DNA from: Bacilli bacterium
GTDB lineage: Bacteria > Bacillota_I > Bacilli_A > RF39 > UBA660
Length of the DNA: 45,962 nucleotides
NCBI GenBank assembly: GCA_017511375.1
Contig: JAFWKJ010000015.1
Location: forward strand, 1-45,962
Direction of reading: 5' to 3'
Below, one piece after another: positions 26,155 through 35,454 of the stretch (within the stretch, counting starts at the first letter, position 1; each line of letters starts with the position of its first letter). The translations under genes were made by a program, and so were the position numbers. The notes below the pieces were generated by a model, which was not told the origin of the DNA, made no database searches, and saw only the letters and a list, made by a program, of their open reading frames with translations.

Positions 26155-26172
26155 GAGTTTTTTCTTTACTTT
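26147..26172 (-). terminator. Terminator of the YbjQ operon
   Basis: AAAGTAAAGA paired with TCTTTACTTT, a 6-nt loop and a T-run, overlapping the stop codon. Confidence 0.8.
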
Positions 26173-26480
26173 ATTTTAACAGCTGTTCCATATACGATGA
26201 TTTCAGCAGCACCTTGCATGACTGCAGATGATCCATAACGGATTCCTACTACAGCATCTGCTCCTAACTTTTCTGCTTCCTCTACCATTCTTTTCGTAGC
26301 AATTTGTCTTGCTTCCCGTATCATTTCTGTATAGCCAGCAATTTCTCCACCTACAAGTGTTTTCATGCCAGCCATGAAATCTCTTCCAATATTTTTAGAT
26401 TGAACAATTTCTCCTTTTACTACTCCTAGCGTTTCTTTGATTTCTTTTCCTTTAATTTCTTCTGTCGTTACAAGTATCAT
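26166..26480 (-). CDS. YbjQ/UPF0145 family protein
   Basis: A 104-aa protein with the complete YbjQ fold: start MILVTTEEIKGKEI, the central SKNIGRDFMAGMKTLVGGE, the helix ARQIATKRMVEEAEKLGADA and end VVGIRYGSSAV. The family forms small pentameric rings and is sometimes called heavy-metal-binding, but its role is not settled. ATG follows AGGAGG at good spacing. It is the second gene of a two-gene operon, 10 bp after a small membrane protein. Confidence 0.92.
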   Translation of the reverse strand: MILVTTEEIKGKEIKETLGVVKGEIVQSKNIGRDFMAGMKTLVGGEIAGYTEMIREARQIATKRMVEEAEKLGADAVVGIRYGSSAVMQGAAEIIVYGTAVKIK

Positions 26481-26727: not shown

Positions 26728-26758
26728 TTTTTCACTTCCATTCTTTTTTTATTATGGA

Positions 26759-26785
26759 AAAAGATATTATTATCTAATATCTTTT
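26759..26785 (-). terminator. Terminator of the giant repeat-protein gene
   Basis: An 11-bp stem (AAAAGATATTA with TAATATCTTTT), a 5-nt loop and a T-run. Confidence 0.8.
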
Positions 26786-29700
26786 ATCTATATCTTTCCA
26801 TTTCCTCTTCTTCAGTTCCATACAAGTAATCATTCATCATATCTGTAATTTCATTTCCATATTGTCCTTTTCTGTTTGTTTGTTTCATACTTGCGGAAAC
26901 ATTAGCAGCTAGAACTGCAGCGGAAGCTGCACATACAATTGTGGATGCCATATCACTTGGTAAAGAACTTAAAGCTGTCATTTGTGTTGCTTGTAATCCC
27001 TTTAATCCTTCTGCCATATTTGTTACATCAACAATTGCTTCATTCATATCGGTAATAGCATTTGGATGTTTTACAAGATAATCCATAGATTGCTCTACCG
27101 CAGTTAAATCAAATTGAGGATGGGTTGCTTTATATGGCCTTAAGATTTGTAGACTACTATCCACTACTTGTTGTAATGTATTTTGTGCATCATTACTAAT
27201 TTGGGCCATTTTTTCTAAAGCCTCTGCTTGTGTGATTACTCCTTGTGCATAATCAGAAGTTACAGCATTTATTTCTTTTGTAACGTCTGCCCCGAATTGA
27301 TTGTAAGCAGCATGCCCTGCATCATCGGCAGCACGGTATGCTCTATTGAAGTGCCAATTTGTTAAATCAAGGTGAGCTCTTTCACGTACATCTGCATGGG
27401 TTAAGATATCTTGTTCTGCTTGCGCTTCCATTCCTTGTTGGAACGTATCTCGTTTTCCAGTAATTTGATCCGCTGTTTGATGCACCTGATCCATCGCTGC
27501 TTGATTTTGTGTATTTATGGTATTGGCTTGTGCTTGTTGATCACTTAAAACTTGTTGAGATTCAATTTGATGAACGCGAATAGCATTAATAGCGCTTACA
27601 GCTGCTGAGGTTACAGCAATGGTTGTAAATAAATCTCGAATAAATGGATCGTCTCGATAATCAAATTGTTCAGCCACTGGGCTATAGTATTTGCTTCCTA
27701 CACTTCTTCTACCGGCAATACTACCACGAATCTCCGTATTATCATAGTAACAACTCTCTAATCCCATGAAATTTTGAACAATTGCTTCACTATCTCCATT
27801 TGCAATAGCAATATTCAAGTTTTGTCCTAAAACACCTAATTGATGTTGTAATTCATTATCGAAGTCATTTGCTCTACCAAATCTCATACCTACATAGTTC
27901 ATCTTAGAAGCAACGGCTTTAAAGTCTTCTTCTATTCCATGTACACCACTTGATAAGATATTGTTGGCTTTATTTCTATTTTCAATAATAGACTTAATAT
28001 GTTGGGCTGCTTCTTGCATAAGAACCATTCTTTGGTTTTCTAATGTCTGCGTGTCCCCTCCATTTTGTTGGATTCTTTCTTCTAAGGCATTGATTTGTCC
28101 AAGGTGTCCAAATAAGGAAACATAATCTTGTTGAATTGCTTGATTTAAAGAAGCAACTCTTTCTAATCCATATCGTTTTAAACGATCTAATATTAATGGA
28201 TTAATTTGATTATTCATATCTGTTTTTAATTGTGTCCCTTTGTATTCTTCAAATAGTACATCCAACTCTTCTTCTGATAAACTTGCTAAACGTTCTTCTA
28301 TGGTACCCATAGCTTCTTGGGCACGTGCACGTGTCATTAATTTTCCTGCAAGTTTTCTAAATACGCTGATTCCGGCTTTCAAAATGGCTGGTACAACATG
28401 AACAATGTTATAGGCATAATTACCACTATGTAACTCTTCTCTAAAACTTTTGGAAATTCTTAAGTTACTTGCTTGATAACGTTTTGCATCTTTTGCCCTT
28501 ATATCTAAATCTTCTGTCAAAACATCTAGGATGGCTTCAACATGAGGTTTTACATGAGTTGGTTCTATTGTTTTTACTTTCACATCTACATATCGTACTT
28601 CTAATTTTGGGCTCTTGCTCATTTTCGCAATACTATTGATAATTTGGTCCGTATCTCTACTTATTTTATGACATGGTTCCCCATTTACGATAGTAGGCTC
28701 TTCTGCCATTCGAATACCGAACTTACGTAATACTCTATCCGGAGCATATACTTGATTATTATCATTCGTATCTCTGTACAACGTTATTAATTCTACATTT
28801 GTTTTTTCTTCTGGTGGAGTTGTTGGAACAGGTCCTGTTGGAACAACTGGTTCTTGTTCCTTTCCAAAAGAGATGTCTTTTATTTCTACTTCATAAGGAG
28901 AATAGTCATTATTTTGATTATTGATAATATCATTTACGTCTTCTGGGTGGATTTCATTTCCTGCGACGTCTCCTAACCTAATTTCTTCTCCTAATGGTTC
29001 TGCATCAAATCTTTCAAAGACTGGTTTGTAGGCATAAAACTTATTTGGATTATCTTTATCTCTAAAGATGACAAATTTTTCTTTGGCTCCTCCACTTGTT
29101 AAAGAAACATTTCTATCTTCTCTATTAGTTGGAACAACAGGTTCTTGTTCTTTTCCAAAAGAAATGTCTTTTATTTCTACTTCATAAGGAGAATAGTCAT
29201 TATTTTGATTATGGATAATATCATTTACATCTTCTGGATGGATTTCGTTTCCTGCCACATCTCCTAGTCTGATTTCTTCTCCTAATGGTTCTGCATCAAA
29301 TCTTTCAAAGACTGGTTTGTAGGCATAAAATCTATTTGGATTATCTTTATCTCTAAAGATTTCAAATTTTTCTTTTGCACCTCTCGTTTCTAATGATTCT
29401 TCTACGATAGGTGGTACTTCTATGGATGATAGGTTTGTTTCTTGATTTTGTCTTTCTGTAACTTTCACATCCATATATTCTATATGATATGGAGAGTAAT
29501 CATTCTCTCTATTTGCTTCTATTGCTTCTAAATCTTCTCTAGAAATTGGATAACATAAAGCTCCTGCTATACGAACGCCTTCTCCTATAGGATCTATATC
29601 AAATCTATCAAACAAGAATTTTCTAGCATATAAATTGTCTTGATTATCTGCATCTCTAAAAATCGTATATCTTTCCGTTGTTTGATTAGTTGTATTTGTT

Positions 29701-31667
29701 TCCTCTATAGGAGTATCTCCTGCCGTTTCTTGTTCTTCTTGTGCTTCCACAACGTCTTCTTCTATTAATCCACTCTCAGGAGTTACGTTTGTTTGAGCCA
29801 TTGCCTCTTGTCCTGTTCCAAACAAACGACTATAGTAGTCTTTTAAGAAGGAAACATATTCTTCATCTGTTTCATCATTTCCTCTATAACGAGGTCTTTT
29901 GAAGTTTGTTCCTGGAATAAATTCATCACTTTCTTCTGATGGAAGGATTTCTCTTTTACTTGCACTACTTTCTTCCACCATGGTTTTTTCTAATGCTTTT
30001 CCAACTTCTAATTCTCCTTCTATGGTAGCTTCCTCTTCTTGAACAATATAAGGGGAATAATCATTCTCTCTATTTGCTAAAATCTTTTCAGCATCTTCTT
30101 TGCTCATTTCATAGCACAATGCATTATTAATACGAACCCCAGGGCCTAACTCTTCTACATCAAATCTTTCAAATACATTGGCACGAGCAAATATCTTATC
30201 AGGATATCTCGCATCTTTAAAGAATACAAAACGATCAATGACAGGGTGAATCTCATCTGTTCTACTTTCCATTACGTCTTTCATATCTTCTGGTGCTTCC
30301 CCTGGTGTATAGGATTTATCTACTTCTTCTTGCCCCATTATCTTTTCTGGCATCTTCGTAATGTTTTTCTTTATATTTTCTAAAGAAGTAGGTCTTACAA
30401 TTAAAACTCTTTGTTTTCCTCTTAGGGATACCTCTGTTTCTACTCCATATAATGCTTCTACTAAATCTAGGATAGATGATTCTTTTTTCTCTTTTTTTGC
30501 TTGCGCTAATTCTTCTAAGATTTCTTGACGAATTGCTCTAATTTGTCTTTTTTGTTCTGGTGTTCTTTCAGAAGCTGGGATTGCAATTAAATCTCCTAAT
30601 CCTTTTTTCTCAATAATAGCAGCTACTAATTTGCGGCTTCTAAAACTATCCGTTATTTCTTTATATTCCATAGCTGATATTCCAAGTTGTTGTGCCATAT
30701 TAAAATCTTTACGAATTCGATTTTTCTTTTTTAATAGTTTACTTAATTCTTCCGTTTGTTGTTTAATACTCTTACGAATTTCCATGGATTGTGTGTTTTC
30801 TGCTTTTGCCTTGGCAATTAATTCTTTTATCTTTTGCTCATATTCTGAAGAATCTTCTTTTGTCATATTCATATATTCTTCTTCTATCTTTTTCATACGA
30901 TCATAAGATTGCTCGTATTCTGTATTGTAAGCAGAAATAGTTTCATACAAAGCATTAATTTGTTCTTCCATTTCATTAAGAGCCTCTTCAAATGGTTCAT
31001 AATCTCTACTAGATTCAGCAACTAATTCATCCATTTTGCTAGATAATTCCGTGATTCTATCTGATAATCTAGCAATTTCTTCTGCATTGGTTGTTGCATG
31101 AAGTTTTTCTCCTAAAGTAATTAGTTCTTCATAGATTTCTTGAAGGGTATGTTCTTCTTCAGCAATTTCTTTTTCTTCTCCTGTTAATTTTTCTTTTGTA
31201 ACTCTATATACAACAAACTTTGTTGATTGTGTTTCACTTTCTCCGTAGTTATCGTCTGCGCCCTCATAACGAATTTCAATTTCGTCTTCTTTTTCTACAT
31301 CAATACCATCTTTTTTCATTACATCTAGAATTTTCTTACGTTGTTCTTCTGGAGACATACGTAATCCATCTAATATCCAAATTCCATTATATATTTCTTC
31401 TCTTTTTTCTCTATATGGAACTGGTTTTTGATAGGTTCTTGTTACTACATAATGGGAAGTTTGTGTTTCACTGATTCCGTTATTGTCTTCTGCCCCTACG
31501 TATCCAATTAGATATTCATCTTCATTTTCTACAGGGATTCCAGCATTTCTCATGGTTTGAAAAATGGATTCATTTTGTTCTTGTAGTGTCATATGACCAT
31601 CTAGTATTAGATCACCTTCAAATACTTTTTCCGTAACTGTCTCATCTATATAAATAATATTATCCAT
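26784..31667 (-). CDS. Giant (1627 aa) orphan protein with two classes of tandem repeats
   Basis: Not recognised. Residues about 15-79 and 91-157 are two copies of a 65-70 aa module (pattern ILDG...EQ...I...G-I-x-V-E-x-E-D-E then GA-x-D-N-x-G-x-SETQ). Residues 165-340 are coiled coil. From about 480 to 1030 come five copies of a roughly 65-aa module marked by (F/Y)RD...YA...F-x-R-F and ending NDYSPY in the first four; copies 2 to 5 recur every 97 residues, and copies 3 and 4 differ at only three positions over 82. The C-terminal 500 residues are helical, with hydrophobic Ala-rich segments near 1345 (TIAVTSAAVSAINAI) and 1590. There is no signal peptide. The start at 31667 follows GGTGGAAGT; an ATG 13 codons upstream overlaps the DUF1292 gene. 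It probably works as an intracellular or membrane-edge scaffold. Confidence 0.7.
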   Translation of the reverse strand: MDNIIYIDETVTEKVFEGDLILDGHMTLQEQNESIFQTMRNAGIPVENEDEYLIGYVGAEDNNGISETQTSHYVVTRTYQKPVPYREKREEIYNGIWILDGLRMSPEEQRKKILDVMKKDGIDVEKEDEIEIRYEGADDNYGESETQSTKFVVYRVTKEKLTGEEKEIAEEEHTLQEIYEELITLGEKLHATTNAEEIARLSDRITELSSKMDELVAESSRDYEPFEEALNEMEEQINALYETISAYNTEYEQSYDRMKKIEEEYMNMTKEDSSEYEQKIKELIAKAKAENTQSMEIRKSIKQQTEELSKLLKKKNRIRKDFNMAQQLGISAMEYKEITDSFRSRKLVAAIIEKKGLGDLIAIPASERTPEQKRQIRAIRQEILEELAQAKKEKKESSILDLVEALYGVETEVSLRGKQRVLIVRPTSLENIKKNITKMPEKIMGQEEVDKSYTPGEAPEDMKDVMESRTDEIHPVIDRFVFFKDARYPDKIFARANVFERFDVEELGPGVRINNALCYEMSKEDAEKILANRENDYSPYIVQEEEATIEGELEVGKALEKTMVEESSASKREILPSEESDEFIPGTNFKRPRYRGNDETDEEYVSFLKDYYSRLFGTGQEAMAQTNVTPESGLIEEDVVEAQEEQETAGDTPIEETNTTNQTTERYTIFRDADNQDNLYARKFLFDRFDIDPIGEGVRIAGALCYPISREDLEAIEANRENDYSPYHIEYMDVKVTERQNQETNLSSIEVPPIVEESLETRGAKEKFEIFRDKDNPNRFYAYKPVFERFDAEPLGEEIRLGDVAGNEIHPEDVNDIIHNQNNDYSPYEVEIKDISFGKEQEPVVPTNREDRNVSLTSGGAKEKFVIFRDKDNPNKFYAYKPVFERFDAEPLGEEIRLGDVAGNEIHPEDVNDIINNQNNDYSPYEVEIKDISFGKEQEPVVPTGPVPTTPPEEKTNVELITLYRDTNDNNQVYAPDRVLRKFGIRMAEEPTIVNGEPCHKISRDTDQIINSIAKMSKSPKLEVRYVDVKVKTIEPTHVKPHVEAILDVLTEDLDIRAKDAKRYQASNLRISKSFREELHSGNYAYNIVHVVPAILKAGISVFRKLAGKLMTRARAQEAMGTIEERLASLSEEELDVLFEEYKGTQLKTDMNNQINPLILDRLKRYGLERVASLNQAIQQDYVSLFGHLGQINALEERIQQNGGDTQTLENQRMVLMQEAAQHIKSIIENRNKANNILSSGVHGIEEDFKAVASKMNYVGMRFGRANDFDNELQHQLGVLGQNLNIAIANGDSEAIVQNFMGLESCYYDNTEIRGSIAGRRSVGSKYYSPVAEQFDYRDDPFIRDLFTTIAVTSAAVSAINAIRVHQIESQQVLSDQQAQANTINTQNQAAMDQVHQTADQITGKRDTFQQGMEAQAEQDILTHADVRERAHLDLTNWHFNRAYRAADDAGHAAYNQFGADVTKEINAVTSDYAQGVITQAEALEKMAQISNDAQNTLQQVVDSSLQILRPYKATHPQFDLTAVEQSMDYLVKHPNAITDMNEAIVDVTNMAEGLKGLQATQMTALSSLPSDMASTIVCAASAAVLAANVSASMKQTNRKGQYGNEITDMMNDYLYGTEEEEMERYR
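28841..29400 (-). repeat. Tandem 291-bp duplication inside the giant gene
   Basis: Two adjacent copies offset by exactly 291 bp (97 codons), for example at 28861 and 29152, differ only at scattered, mostly third-position bases. They encode repeat modules 3 and 4. The near identity points to a recent duplication that kept the frame. Confidence 0.85.
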
Positions 31668-31683
31668 ACTTCCACCACCAATC

Positions 31684-31962
31684 CTACTTGTACTTGCTTT
31701 CCTCATCGAACTTAGTTAAAACCTCGCCAATCATTTGTAATTCTTTTTCGTCTGTAATATCTTCTAACTTTAATACTGGCTGAAACGGATCAAAAGAAGA
31801 CACATAAATATTCTTACGTCCATTAGAGGCAATTGAATGATCTGTATATCCTATATAGGATTTCATAGTATCTTCAGAGTCAAAAGTAAACAATATATCA
31901 CATTCTACTGTTTGGCCATCTTTCTCAAGTTGAATTTTTTCATTTTCTAAATCAAATTCCAT
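31684..31962 (-). CDS. DUF1292 family protein
   Basis: A 92-aa acidic protein of the DUF1292 (YrzB-like) type, small cytosolic proteins of unknown function in Bacillota. Visible features are the start MEFDLENEKIQLEKDG, the central ILFTFDSEDTMKSYIGYTDH and an acidic C-terminal LEDITDEKELQMIGEVL. The start at 31962 has GGAGG nine bases upstream; a GTG two codons earlier is too close. It is the first gene of a two-gene operon with the giant protein, 16 bp apart. In other Bacillota DUF1292 genes lie by yrzL-yrrK, so this pairing is unusual. Confidence 0.8.
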   Translation of the reverse strand: MEFDLENEKIQLEKDGQTVECDILFTFDSEDTMKSYIGYTDHSIASNGRKNIYVSSFDPFQPVLKLEDITDEKELQMIGEVLTKFDEESKYK

Positions 31963-32002
31963 TGTCACAAACCTCCAATTTATCTTAATCTTATACTATT
32001 TT

Positions 32003-32031
32003 ATTCTATCATTCGCCAAAAAAAAAGTCAA
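32003..32031 (-). promoter_or_regulatory. Promoter of the DUF1292-giant protein operon
   Basis: TTGACT (32026-32031), a 17-bp spacer and TAGAAT (32003-32008) with upstream TG. The -35 is formed by the 3' arm of the preceding terminator. Confidence 0.8.
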
Positions 32032-32044: not shown

Positions 32045-32626
32045 TTAACTTGCAACTTCTATATGGAGTTTATCTCCTTCTTTTAGTTGTGAATTTTCCT
32101 TTACTGTGAAGTAGAAAATTGTCTCTTCTTTCTTCGTTTTGCTGAAAGGAACTCCTTGGATAATTGTTTGATTTTGATCTGTCATTAAGTTCTCTGTATT
32201 ATCATCTTGATGGATGATAATTTCCGCATCAGAATTATTGGTTATCGTAAGAGTATATGTAGAACCCTTTGTATTCAGTTTTCCTTTACGATGGTTCGTA
32301 ATTTTCATAGAATACTCGTGTCCTACAAGTGTTTGTAATTCTAAATCGATATAATTCTTTGTTTTTTCTTCCATAATAGAAAATACAATATTACTTTGTT
32401 TTGCCTTTTGTTCATTCTCCTTTACTGTTGCTACTACGAATAAAAAGATAACTAATACGAGTAGAAAGGCAAACATAGTATACAAAAAGGAATAGGACAT
32501 TAAGAACCTTTTTGCTTTCTCTTTAAATGGTTCATTATTAGGTACGGCGTTTTTTTCTCTTCTATTCTTTTTTACTGGCTTTTTACCAGTTGTTTTTTGT
32601 GTTCTTTTTTTCTTTTTCTCTTCCAT
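32045..32626 (-). CDS. Membrane-anchored orphan with beta-rich exterior
   Basis: A 193-aa protein, not recognised. Residues 1-40 are extremely basic (KKKKRTQKTTGKKPVKKNRR), 45-68 form one membrane helix (YTMFAFLLVLVIFLFVVATV), and 75-193 are beta-rich with TYTLTITNNSDAEIIIHQDD, which looks like an Ig-like fold. By charge the N-terminus is inside and the beta domain outside. It is second in a two-gene operon, 14 bp after its partner. Confidence 0.6.
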   Translation of the reverse strand: MEEKKKKRTQKTTGKKPVKKNRREKNAVPNNEPFKEKAKRFLMSYSFLYTMFAFLLVLVIFLFVVATVKENEQKAKQSNIVFSIMEEKTKNYIDLELQTLVGHEYSMKITNHRKGKLNTKGSTYTLTITNNSDAEIIIHQDDNTENLMTDQNQTIIQGVPFSKTKKEETIFYFTVKENSQLKEGDKLHIEVAS

Positions 32627-32640
32627 AATCTTCCTCTTTT

Positions 32641-34011
32641 CTATTTTTCTAATCTTTCTTTTATCGTTTCTTTTAATCCCTTTAATCTTTCTTCTTCTGC
32701 TTCGGTTAGAGAAGCTCTCAATACCGATGACTCTGTGTCAACCGTTATTTTAGGATCTGCACTCACATTGGATTCGGCTTCTATATCTCCTTGTAATTGT
32801 ATGGCTTTGTTTTTAATCCATTTAAAGGTAAGATGATCTTCTCTCACATAAGATGTTTTCTTTTGATCTTTATACTTGGCAGAGTACGTCAAATCAAATT
32901 TTTGTTTCTTTAATTCTATTGTCGCTGTAATCATCGTGTTTTGGTCATCTTTTTCTCCTTTGATTGTACCAATCTGATTTTCATTTCGATCAAAAATGAT
33001 AATACTTGTTCTTCTCTTTGTAGACTGATATTCTGCTGTGTACTTTATATTTCCGTTTTCAGAAAAATAGAATACTCCTTTATTCATATCTCCTTCAATA
33101 GAATAGATAAATTCCTGACTTTCTTTTAAATATACAAAGTCATATTTTACTAACTTCAAAAGCGGTTTAGATACATATAAATTTATTTGAAAGACTTCTT
33201 TTGGATTAATATAGTGCTTTTTCGCATTTACTTTCAAGTCTTCCACACGATACTGCCCAACGGATAAAATCTCTTTAGCTCTTTTATCAGCTTTTATATC
33301 CTTTAGAATTGCCTTTAATAATCTTTTGTATTCTTTATCCGTAATTCTATAAGAAATCTTGCCTACTTTTACACGTTCATTATGAAGCGTTGTAACTTCA
33401 TTGTAAGCTTTCAATTGTCCTTTTGTCACGTTCTTCTTAAGAGAATCCCCTATAAAATCATATAAATAATTTATATTATCGACCGTTGTCTGTTCTTCAC
33501 TAAAGGCTTCAAAATAGTTGTTGTTTCCATCATTTACATAATTACTCAGTACATTTTTCACTAAAAAGTATTGGGTTGAATTATTTATATAACGTTGTTC
33601 TCCATAGATTTCCTCTTCTCCTATTTTAGCATTCCATTCTGTATAGACCTGTTGTTTGTTTCTATCTTGTTGGAAAAGATAAGAAATATCCATCATCGAT
33701 AAATTGTTTAATCTTTTATTTTTTTTCTCATATTCAGGGTTCGTCGTGGCTTTGTTTTGATAAGTTTCACTTGATAAATTCATTTTCATTGTTCCTTCAA
33801 CCTGGAAGGAATCCCCTAGATTATGATCAGGTGAAATAGAAAAAATCTCTTTCGATTTTCCCATGACTTGGTCAACGGCTTCTCCAAAAATATACTGTTC
33901 GTCAGTTAATTTTGTAAAGTATAGTCCTGTCATAATCATAGCAATTGCTATAGATATTAATAGTAAGAATAGTAGTGTTCTAAAAAATACACGTTTTATT
34001 TTTCTAAACAT
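32641..34011 (-). CDS. Membrane-anchored extracellular orphan, 456 aa
   Basis: Not assigned with confidence. Residues 1-30 are a basic patch plus a membrane segment (TLLFLLLISIAIAMIMTGLY). The remaining 420 residues are predicted outside, with alternating beta strands (VGKISYRITDKEYKRLLK; FQINLYVSKPLLKLVKYDF; GTIKGEKDDQNTMITATIEL) resembling large lipoprotein-like beta sheets such as LolA/LppX-type folds. The C-terminus is a charged helix. It has a very good promoter and is the first gene of the pair with the anchored orphan at 32045. Confidence 0.6.
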   Translation of the reverse strand: MFRKIKRVFFRTLLFLLLISIAIAMIMTGLYFTKLTDEQYIFGEAVDQVMGKSKEIFSISPDHNLGDSFQVEGTMKMNLSSETYQNKATTNPEYEKKNKRLNNLSMMDISYLFQQDRNKQQVYTEWNAKIGEEEIYGEQRYINNSTQYFLVKNVLSNYVNDGNNNYFEAFSEEQTTVDNINYLYDFIGDSLKKNVTKGQLKAYNEVTTLHNERVKVGKISYRITDKEYKRLLKAILKDIKADKRAKEILSVGQYRVEDLKVNAKKHYINPKEVFQINLYVSKPLLKLVKYDFVYLKESQEFIYSIEGDMNKGVFYFSENGNIKYTAEYQSTKRRTSIIIFDRNENQIGTIKGEKDDQNTMITATIELKKQKFDLTYSAKYKDQKKTSYVREDHLTFKWIKNKAIQLQGDIEAESNVSADPKITVDTESSVLRASLTEAEEERLKGLKETIKERLEK

Positions 34012-34036
34012 TTACGATCACTTCCTACTCTATTTA

Positions 34037-34064
34037 ATTATATCAAAAAAGAAGTAGTTGTCAA
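34037..34064 (-). promoter_or_regulatory. Promoter of the anchored-protein pair
   Basis: TTGACA (34059-34064), a 16-bp spacer and TATAAT (34037-34042) with upstream TG. The TTGACA spans the loop of the terminator hairpin of the mraZ operon. Confidence 0.85.
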
Positions 34065-34072
34065 ACTACCTC
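34045..34072 (-). terminator. Terminator of the mraZ operon
   Basis: GAGGTAGTT paired with AACTACTTC (one wobble pair), a 4-nt loop, then a T-run. Confidence 0.85.
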
Positions 34073-34615
34073 TTACGATTCTATTTTTGATTCTGTGATA
34101 ATACCAATTCTTCCGCTTAATGATTGAGATTTATTTTTAAATTCAGCATTTTCAACGGGATTATAAATGGCACTTATTTTAACAGTTGCTTCTTCTCCCG
34201 GTTCTAATACCTTTCCACTCATATCAGAAATACTAATAACAACAGGAGAAATGTCTTTTATTACTTTTTTAGATTTAAAATCTGGACTAGAGAACAAACT
34301 GACGATGGTAGCCTGTAAAGTCCCTTCATTTTTAATGGTTACTTCATAATCCACTTCATCGTGTTCATGATATAACTCAAAATCCATTTTTAATATTTTC
34401 CCAGAAGAATCAATCTTTATTTTACCAGAAGGATTCTTTTCTCCTCCTTTAATAGAAGATAAAAGTTTAGCTGACTGAAAATGCACATCAAAAATATCTT
34501 GTTCTTTACGATAGTCTTCCAATTTCATGGATAATACCATAAAACCAATTCCCATGGCAATGATCGTAATGCAAAGAATTATAATAATTGTATTTTTTAT
34601 ATTTCCTTTTTTCAT
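34073..34615 (-). CDS. Membrane-anchored beta-rich orphan at the end of the mraZ operon
   Basis: A 180-aa protein, not recognised. Residues 8-30 form the anchor (TIIIILCITIIAMGIGFMVL). The exterior carries a typical Ig-like pattern (DYEVTIKNEGTLQATIVSLF; VLEPGEEATVKISAIYNP). ATG overlaps the stop of the preceding gene (TAATG), so translation is coupled. The site is occupied in other Bacilli by cell-wall genes (mraY/murD), suggesting a role at the division site, by inference only. Confidence 0.6.
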   Translation of the reverse strand: MKKGNIKNTIIIILCITIIAMGIGFMVLSMKLEDYRKEQDIFDVHFQSAKLLSSIKGGEKNPSGKIKIDSSGKILKMDFELYHEHDEVDYEVTIKNEGTLQATIVSLFSSPDFKSKKVIKDISPVVISISDMSGKVLEPGEEATVKISAIYNPVENAEFKNKSQSLSGRIGIITESKIES

Positions 34616-35454
34616 TAAGCTTCACATTCCCCTTTCGTTCTATCATCAATGGTTCCTTTATAACAATAAGCGTATGATTGTTTCTCATCTTTTATTTCAA
34701 TAAATGCATAGATTTTTTCATTTTCTATTTTATACCAACTACGATCTGTTGGATAATACTTATGATTTTCATCAGCAGGAATAAGAGAAATCGGTATTTC
34801 TTCTTCATCCTTGCTATTTTTTAATTGTTCTAATTTCTTGTAGATGTTGTTTGCATATTCAGATGAAGTTCTTTCATCTAACGTTTCTTGTTTTTGTGCA
34901 TATGCTTTTATGATTTCTTTGGAATATAAGTCTATCTCCCATAAAGTGGAAGAAAAAGAGTCTGTATCTATTCCTAATTGTTTTGCTCGATCTGTTATAT
35001 CTTGTTTTTCTTCTGTGATTGTGGGAGAAATGCCGTTTTTATTCATTATTTCTATCCAACTTGTATGAAATAATTCATATTTTTCATCATCAGTACGTAA
35101 TATTTCTATTTGAGATTCTGAACGTAACAATTGATTCTCAATTAGAATCGTTATGATTCTTTCAATTCCGTTTTCTATAGTTTGCGATTCTATACTTTTA
35201 TTATACAAAGACATAGAATAATTGTCAAAGAAGAAAAGATGGATAATCCTTCCTTTTGCATTGTACGCTAACATAAAGTCTGTTTGATTATCTATCCTTA
35301 CTTCTACTAAGTTTACGACTTGAGAACTATTGATAAAACGATCACTCGATCCTGTATTCTCTTTATATTCTGGTATCATAATTTTTATAATATAATATGC
35401 CATAGCAAGTATTATGATACTTATTTCTAAAAAGGTAACTATTTTTTTATTCAT
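34615..35454 (-). CDS. Membrane-anchored orphan, possible RsgI-like outer domain
   Basis: A 279-aa protein with an anchor at about 8-26 and an exterior part. Residues 45-120 (NLVEVRIDNQTDFMLAYNAK, then RIIHLFFFDN and GIERIITILIENQLL) resemble in layout the middle domain of RsgI-type anti-sigma factors, where a conserved D-x-N-x stretch is followed by an amphipathic helix. The resemblance is weak and no intracellular sigma-binding domain is present. The C-terminal 100 residues form charged helices, then a final beta domain with two cysteines. It starts 3 bp after the PBP stop, so it belongs to the mraZ operon. Function is unknown. Confidence 0.55.
   Translation of the reverse strand: MNKKIVTFLEISIIILAMAYYIIKIMIPEYKENTGSSDRFINSSQVVNLVEVRIDNQTDFMLAYNAKGRIIHLFFFDNYSMSLYNKSIESQTIENGIERIITILIENQLLRSESQIEILRTDDEKYELFHTSWIEIMNKNGISPTITEEKQDITDRAKQLGIDTDSFSSTLWEIDLYSKEIIKAYAQKQETLDERTSSEYANNIYKKLEQLKNSKDEEEIPISLIPADENHKYYPTDRSWYKIENEKIYAFIEIKDEKQSYAYCYKGTIDDRTKGECEA

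Follow-up and report, generated by a model that had tools for sequence, protein, structure and literature searches.

The stretch of DNA analyzed here, called the window throughout, comprises positions 1 to 45,962 of contig JAFWKJ010000015.1 from the Bacilli bacterium assembly GCA_017511375.1 (GTDB lineage Bacillota_I; Bacilli_A; RF39; UBA660). It contains, at 26784-31667, a gene for a giant modular protein of 1,627 residues, the stop codon (26784-26786) included in these limits. This open reading frame had been singled out from the sequence alone in an initial annotation, and it proved real, with the coordinates right. No strand was given then; the gene lies on the minus strand, and stop codons abound on the plus strand. 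All features of the giant gene, its upstream partner, and their promoter given below are likewise on the minus strand. A second in-frame start is present at 31706, and the start at 31667 agrees with the N termini of the relatives (MDNIIY, MEDIIY, or MESIIY). Between relatives, divergence at the first, second, and third codon positions was 0.24 to 0.26, 0.14 to 0.17, and 0.40 to 0.49, respectively, and this concentration of differences at third positions is in keeping with purifying selection on the encoded protein. Directly 3' of the stop codon, an AT-rich hairpin followed by a T run can be read from the sequence (26755-26783); it is a possible terminator, at which the terminator scan made no call. 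Two genes downstream of the giant, there is a YbjQ-family gene (26169-26480; PF01906, E value of 5.7e-40), kept downstream of the giant in several congeners.

Iterated profiles recovered both N-terminal ILDG/SETQ modules recognized by the initial annotation, here called I modules, with 101 bits for the first (residues 12 to 83; 31419-31634) and 106 bits for the second (residues 89 to 160; 31188-31403). They are followed by a coil-like helical stretch that aligns across relatives (residues 166 to 465; 30273-31172). Its composition, with only 5% of Pro plus Gly and 49% of Ala, Gln, Glu, Lys, and Leu, is as expected of the long coiled coil that had been proposed. Five NDYSPY-type modules had also been proposed, and all five of these N modules were found by iterated profiles (77 to 98 bits): N1 at residues 478 to 549 (30021-30236), N2 at 665 to 736 (29460-29675), N3 at 766 to 837 (29157-29372), N4 at 863 to 934 (28866-29081), and N5 at 959 to 1032 (28572-28793). 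However, the NDYSPY motif itself is found in four of them and is missing from N5. Between N1 and N2 is a linker motif, DEFIPGTNFKRPRYR..ETDEEYVSFLKDYYSRLFG (29814-29924), common to other proteins of the genus. A 269-nt segment of DNA is 91% identical between the N3 and N4 regions, indicating a recent tandem duplication and a module array that is still growing; among the proteins examined, the counts vary from zero to five I modules and from zero to eight N modules.

No described family was found to account for any of these parts. The whole giant and its parts gave at most scattered matches below threshold in Pfam, NCBIfam, PHROGs, and PADLOC, and no match among PDB sequences (the I module was searched alone against PDB sequences and within the whole protein against the others). 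The N module could be modeled confidently with AF2 (pLDDT of 92.7 for N2; N5, within a model of residues 949 to 1627, reached about 80), and the predicted order of elements is strand-strand-helix-strand-strand-helix-strand. A fold search of the N2 model gave no clear match among PDB structures, and the best hit in a viral structure library had an E value of 0.07. The best structural alignment was to the N-terminal mismatch-recognition domain of MutS (Z score of 4.0, within the stated noise floor of the tool; root mean square deviation of 3.5 Å over 67 to 68 residues; 12 to 17% identity; Foldseek E value of 0.37), and no other part of MutS is present in the giant. This likeness, drawn from a predicted model, is not evidence of relationship. 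The earlier failure to place the protein in a known family thus stands, both for the profile searches and for the fold search with the N module.

The remainder of the protein is a conserved C domain of 592 residues (residues 1036 to 1627; 26787-28562), with 41 to 70% identity within the genus and distant members in other genera. The helical composition and hydrophobic patches described before were recovered, and hydropathy across homologues defined three patches, A (residues 1085 to 1103; 28359-28415), B (residues 1342 to 1360; 27588-27644), and C (residues 1573 to 1591; 26895-26951). In 17 homologues, each of them is among the most hydrophobic few percent of sequence windows, the worst case being in the top 5.5%. 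Their peak Kyte-Doolittle values of ca. 0.6 to 1.7 are borderline for a membrane span, and patches of such strength may form a buried core and not a membrane-facing surface. AF2 applied to residues 949 to 1627 with eight sequences reached a pLDDT of 51, too low for a model of the C domain. Fold-search matches of this prediction were generic helical ones and were discarded, and matches of the C domain to aBAK (E value of 0.0024) were confined to a 68-residue helical segment and regarded as chance. As had been noted, the window protein has no export signal, its N terminus being without a hydrophobic segment; by eye, the homologues inspected also start without a signal peptide or anchor.

The gene immediately upstream (31684-31962, ca. 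92 residues, with an alternative GTG start at 31968) encodes a member of DUF1292 (PF06949; 28.5 bits against a cutoff of 24, E value of 2.9e-6) and ends ca. 17 nt before the start of the giant. This DUF1292 paralogue was found directly upstream of the giant in all 23 loci compared, usually with a gap of <20 nt and sometimes overlapping, with one exception in detail: in G171, a frameshifted N-terminal fragment of the giant comes between the paralogue and the rest. There (L070:6771-11272), the giant is split inside an N-terminal repeat by a frameshift that is either real or an assembly error. Across the family, scores against the paralogue profile were bimodal, ≥105 bits for one class and ≤95 bits for canonical DUF1292. 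The window paralogue, with 153 bits against the profile of its own subfamily, falls outside the canonical YrzB class, and the lower-scoring copies in the same genome are separate genes (C9 and C11). Thus, the partner shares the PF06949 profile with YrzB but forms a second, distinct subfamily tied to the giant gene, while nearly all family genomes searched also keep canonical-class copies. The giant itself is not a DUF1292 protein. High-class paralogues and C domains were each found in 15 genomes, 14 of them common to both. In G244, the high-class paralogue is followed by a coil-type ORF cut by the contig end, and G258 has the C domain and is absent from the paralogue matches listed. The giant is therefore the second half of a two-gene unit with a divergent DUF1292 paralogue. 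Among the control genomes, DUF1292 (YrzB) was present in Bacillus subtilis and Lactococcus. The literature searched on this family contains passing mentions that give no function, one of them as a “putative anti-sigma factor” (PMC3814617).

Upstream of the DUF1292 gene, a predicted promoter, TTGACT-N17-TAGAAT with a TG extension, is located at 32003-32031, the single exact match to the motif within the window. The form conserved in the genus of the window is TTGACT, 17 nt, and an extended -10 element, TGnTAnAnT. A stricter version of the motif occurred once in each of 17 matching loci, always at the unit, and the motif is retained in L079, where the pair sits outside the dcw block. The scores at individual loci were often nonsignificant by shuffling, the support coming from this repetition across loci, which identifies a conserved promoter belonging to the unit within the genus. 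Distant homologues have a weaker or different sequence at this site.

The initial annotation called the giant an orphan. This holds in that no described family matches it, but homologues were found in 28 of 35 congeners searched, and several of the seven without a match are incomplete assemblies. The relatives are metagenome-assembled genomes deposited under the labels uncultured Bacilli, Bacillales, or Erysipelotrichaceae; sheep and yak rumen are the source of some. A profile detected the C domain in 15 of 193 genomes of the family and 12 of 148 genera. Among 296 genomes sampled evenly across the class, no further lineage with this domain appeared, and the N module was not found in 295 genomes of the phylum outside that of the window; beyond the genus, one weak N module copy (44 bits) was found, in G082. 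These samples bear out the restriction implied when the protein was proposed as a major scaffold of its lineage, but not a general scaffold, with so few of the family genomes positive. Most genera of the family lack the unit, so any scaffold role would not be essential to the family. In distant homologues, the protein seems to be made up of the C domain preceded by a coil-like part, which suggests a later origin of the I and N modules. One of these homologues (L067:8545-11049) opens with a segment resembling a degenerate J domain that lacks HPD, which Pfam did not confirm.

Of the 13 positives in a 61-genome RsmH tree, 12 fell together, with three negatives among them, and mapping presence onto this tree required 2 changes against 11.9 in shuffles. 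The remaining positive, G082, was placed in a distant clade (support of 100/99). In the C-domain tree, however, the main copy of G082 joined the genus of the window (support of 100/99), a conflict that points to horizontal transfer of the pair. Contamination as the origin of this copy was disfavored, since the MiaA encoded next to it shares 69% identity with the MiaA of G247, a congener of G082, and ≤58% with the others; the contig with the pair is probably native. As read from the trees, the unit has passed on mainly by vertical descent and has been transferred at least once. G082 also has, on contig C74 (L072:1723-6700), a second and very divergent copy of the pair, with the C domain duplicated and broken. 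In the genus of G065 and G258, the giant (L074:6971-8071 in G065 and L087:5498-6634 in G258) is shortened to 367 to 379 residues and keeps only the start of the C domain, which suggests decay; in G065, it immediately follows the DUF1292 paralogue. New with respect to the initial annotation are the DUF1292 partner found at every locus compared, the promoter of the unit, and the passage of the pair into another lineage.

Parts of the giant recur in other proteins of the genus. Four of them (L077:6833-10402, L078:211-3543, L081:6080-8446, and L055:1180-2199) have N modules, the motif PGTNF..ETDEEYVxFLxxYY, or both, and three of the four adjoin rpsO-pnp. Two proteins with the N module or PGTNF motif gave weak, sub-cutoff transglutaminase-like matches (E values of 0.0023 and 0.026), and in L077 and L078 the putative transglutaminase catalytic residues appear degenerate by eye. 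The genome of the window also encodes, on contig C17 (about 63557-64876; L059/L075), a 483-residue protein with ca. four divergent N modules and without the C domain. The sharing of N modules and of the PGTNF..ETDEEY motif suggests a small network of proteins with common interaction parts.

The variable module counts, the duplication of N3 and N4, the stretch poor in Pro and Gly, the conserved patches, and the lack of an export signal together give the giant a scaffold-like anatomy. For this two-gene unit with its own promoter, we tentatively favor, with rather less than even confidence, a reading in which the giant is a cytoplasmic, extendable scaffold or tether that works with its DUF1292 partner. 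The working end would lie in the C domain, which would probably attach to the inner face of the membrane or assemble via its three patches. The coil and the varying number of I and N modules would act as spacers and as beads on which other proteins dock, and some of these proteins may carry the same N modules and PGTNF..ETDEEY motif. The DUF1292 protein would bind the giant during synthesis and chaperone, regulate, or recruit it. The data show the module anatomy, the fixed pairing, the promoter, the co-occurrence, the restriction to a lineage, and the transfer; the scaffold or tether role, the peripheral membrane docking, and the direct binding of DUF1292 are what we infer. The earlier designation as a major scaffold is compatible with the size, module duplication, coil, and conserved nonexported C domain predicted here, and only that. 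Large bacterial coil-plus-repeat scaffolds are of the same kind, i.e., nonexported and very long, with a coil and tandem small domains and with length changing by module duplication. However, no sequence relationship with them was found, the modules and C domain of the giant matching no described family. The EAGR box is a mark of the terminal-organelle proteins of Mycoplasma; for the whole giant, Pfam gave no match of any kind.

An unlikely alternative is that the giant is a large effector or a protein of contact-dependent antagonism that leaves the cell without a classical signal, the DUF1292 protein serving it alone as chaperone or adaptor. Such a system would explain a small gene immediately upstream of a giant modular one, as well as the scattered occurrence of the pair and its horizontal transfer, but the conserved part of the giant is its C terminus, the opposite of what is seen in polymorphic toxins. 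Moreover, toxin, secretion, and immunity families gave no match, and no conserved immunity-like gene lies downstream.

The position of the pair raises the question whether the giant belongs functionally to the dcw block, as an accessory in cell division or peptidoglycan synthesis that works together with the small membrane proteins encoded after ftsI. In the window, as in many congeners, the pair immediately follows mraZ-rsmH-ftsL-ftsI and the genes for four conserved single-span proteins. These four membrane-anchored proteins (32048-35454 in the window), between ftsI and the DUF1292 gene, are conserved in the genus and could be assigned to no family. Most loci of the pair are behind dcw genes, but it was found in at least six genomic settings, the others (gene names by inspection) being behind genes for thymidine kinase, agmatine deiminase, a sensor kinase, or glutamine amidotransferase, or near miaA, so that in several genomes it stands outside the block; the pair also has a promoter of its own. 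Conversely, relatives of one member of the block (c6, 32644-34011) occur in 42 of 179 family genomes, and many of these genomes lack the giant. With the pair occurring elsewhere and a block member occurring without it, we consider this role quite improbable.

A cell-surface adhesin or S-layer-like repeat protein would account for tandem beta/alpha modules whose number differs between species, yet the window protein has neither signal peptide nor anchor, and the starts of the homologues inspected by eye likewise show neither, making a surface location very improbable. Least probable is an origin from a phage or mobile element, e.g., as a tape measure or structural protein: the great length, the coil, the Ala/Gln-rich hydrophobic C-terminal helices, and the transfer to G082 are of that kind, but the neighbors are housekeeping genes, inheritance is mostly vertical in one clade, matches to PHROGs were inconsistent (the best weak and scattered), and no relative was found in 50,697 phage records, 72,556 plasmid records, or viral contigs.

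Returning to the scaffold or tether, its broadest form, which we put forward as rather doubtful, is that gut and rumen Bacilli have a hitherto undescribed cellular structure of two components, a dedicated DUF1292 protein controlling the assembly of a giant scaffold that extends by module duplication, and that the two are inherited as a unit that can pass to other lineages. If true, this reading would provide the first concrete partner for the widespread YrzB/DUF1292 family. With a duplicated DUF1292 fixed beside one giant, the question of what DUF1292 binds becomes a simple pull-down. Two module families and a 592-residue domain of the giant are absent from the family libraries searched, and the N module has a confident model yet no clear match among solved structures.
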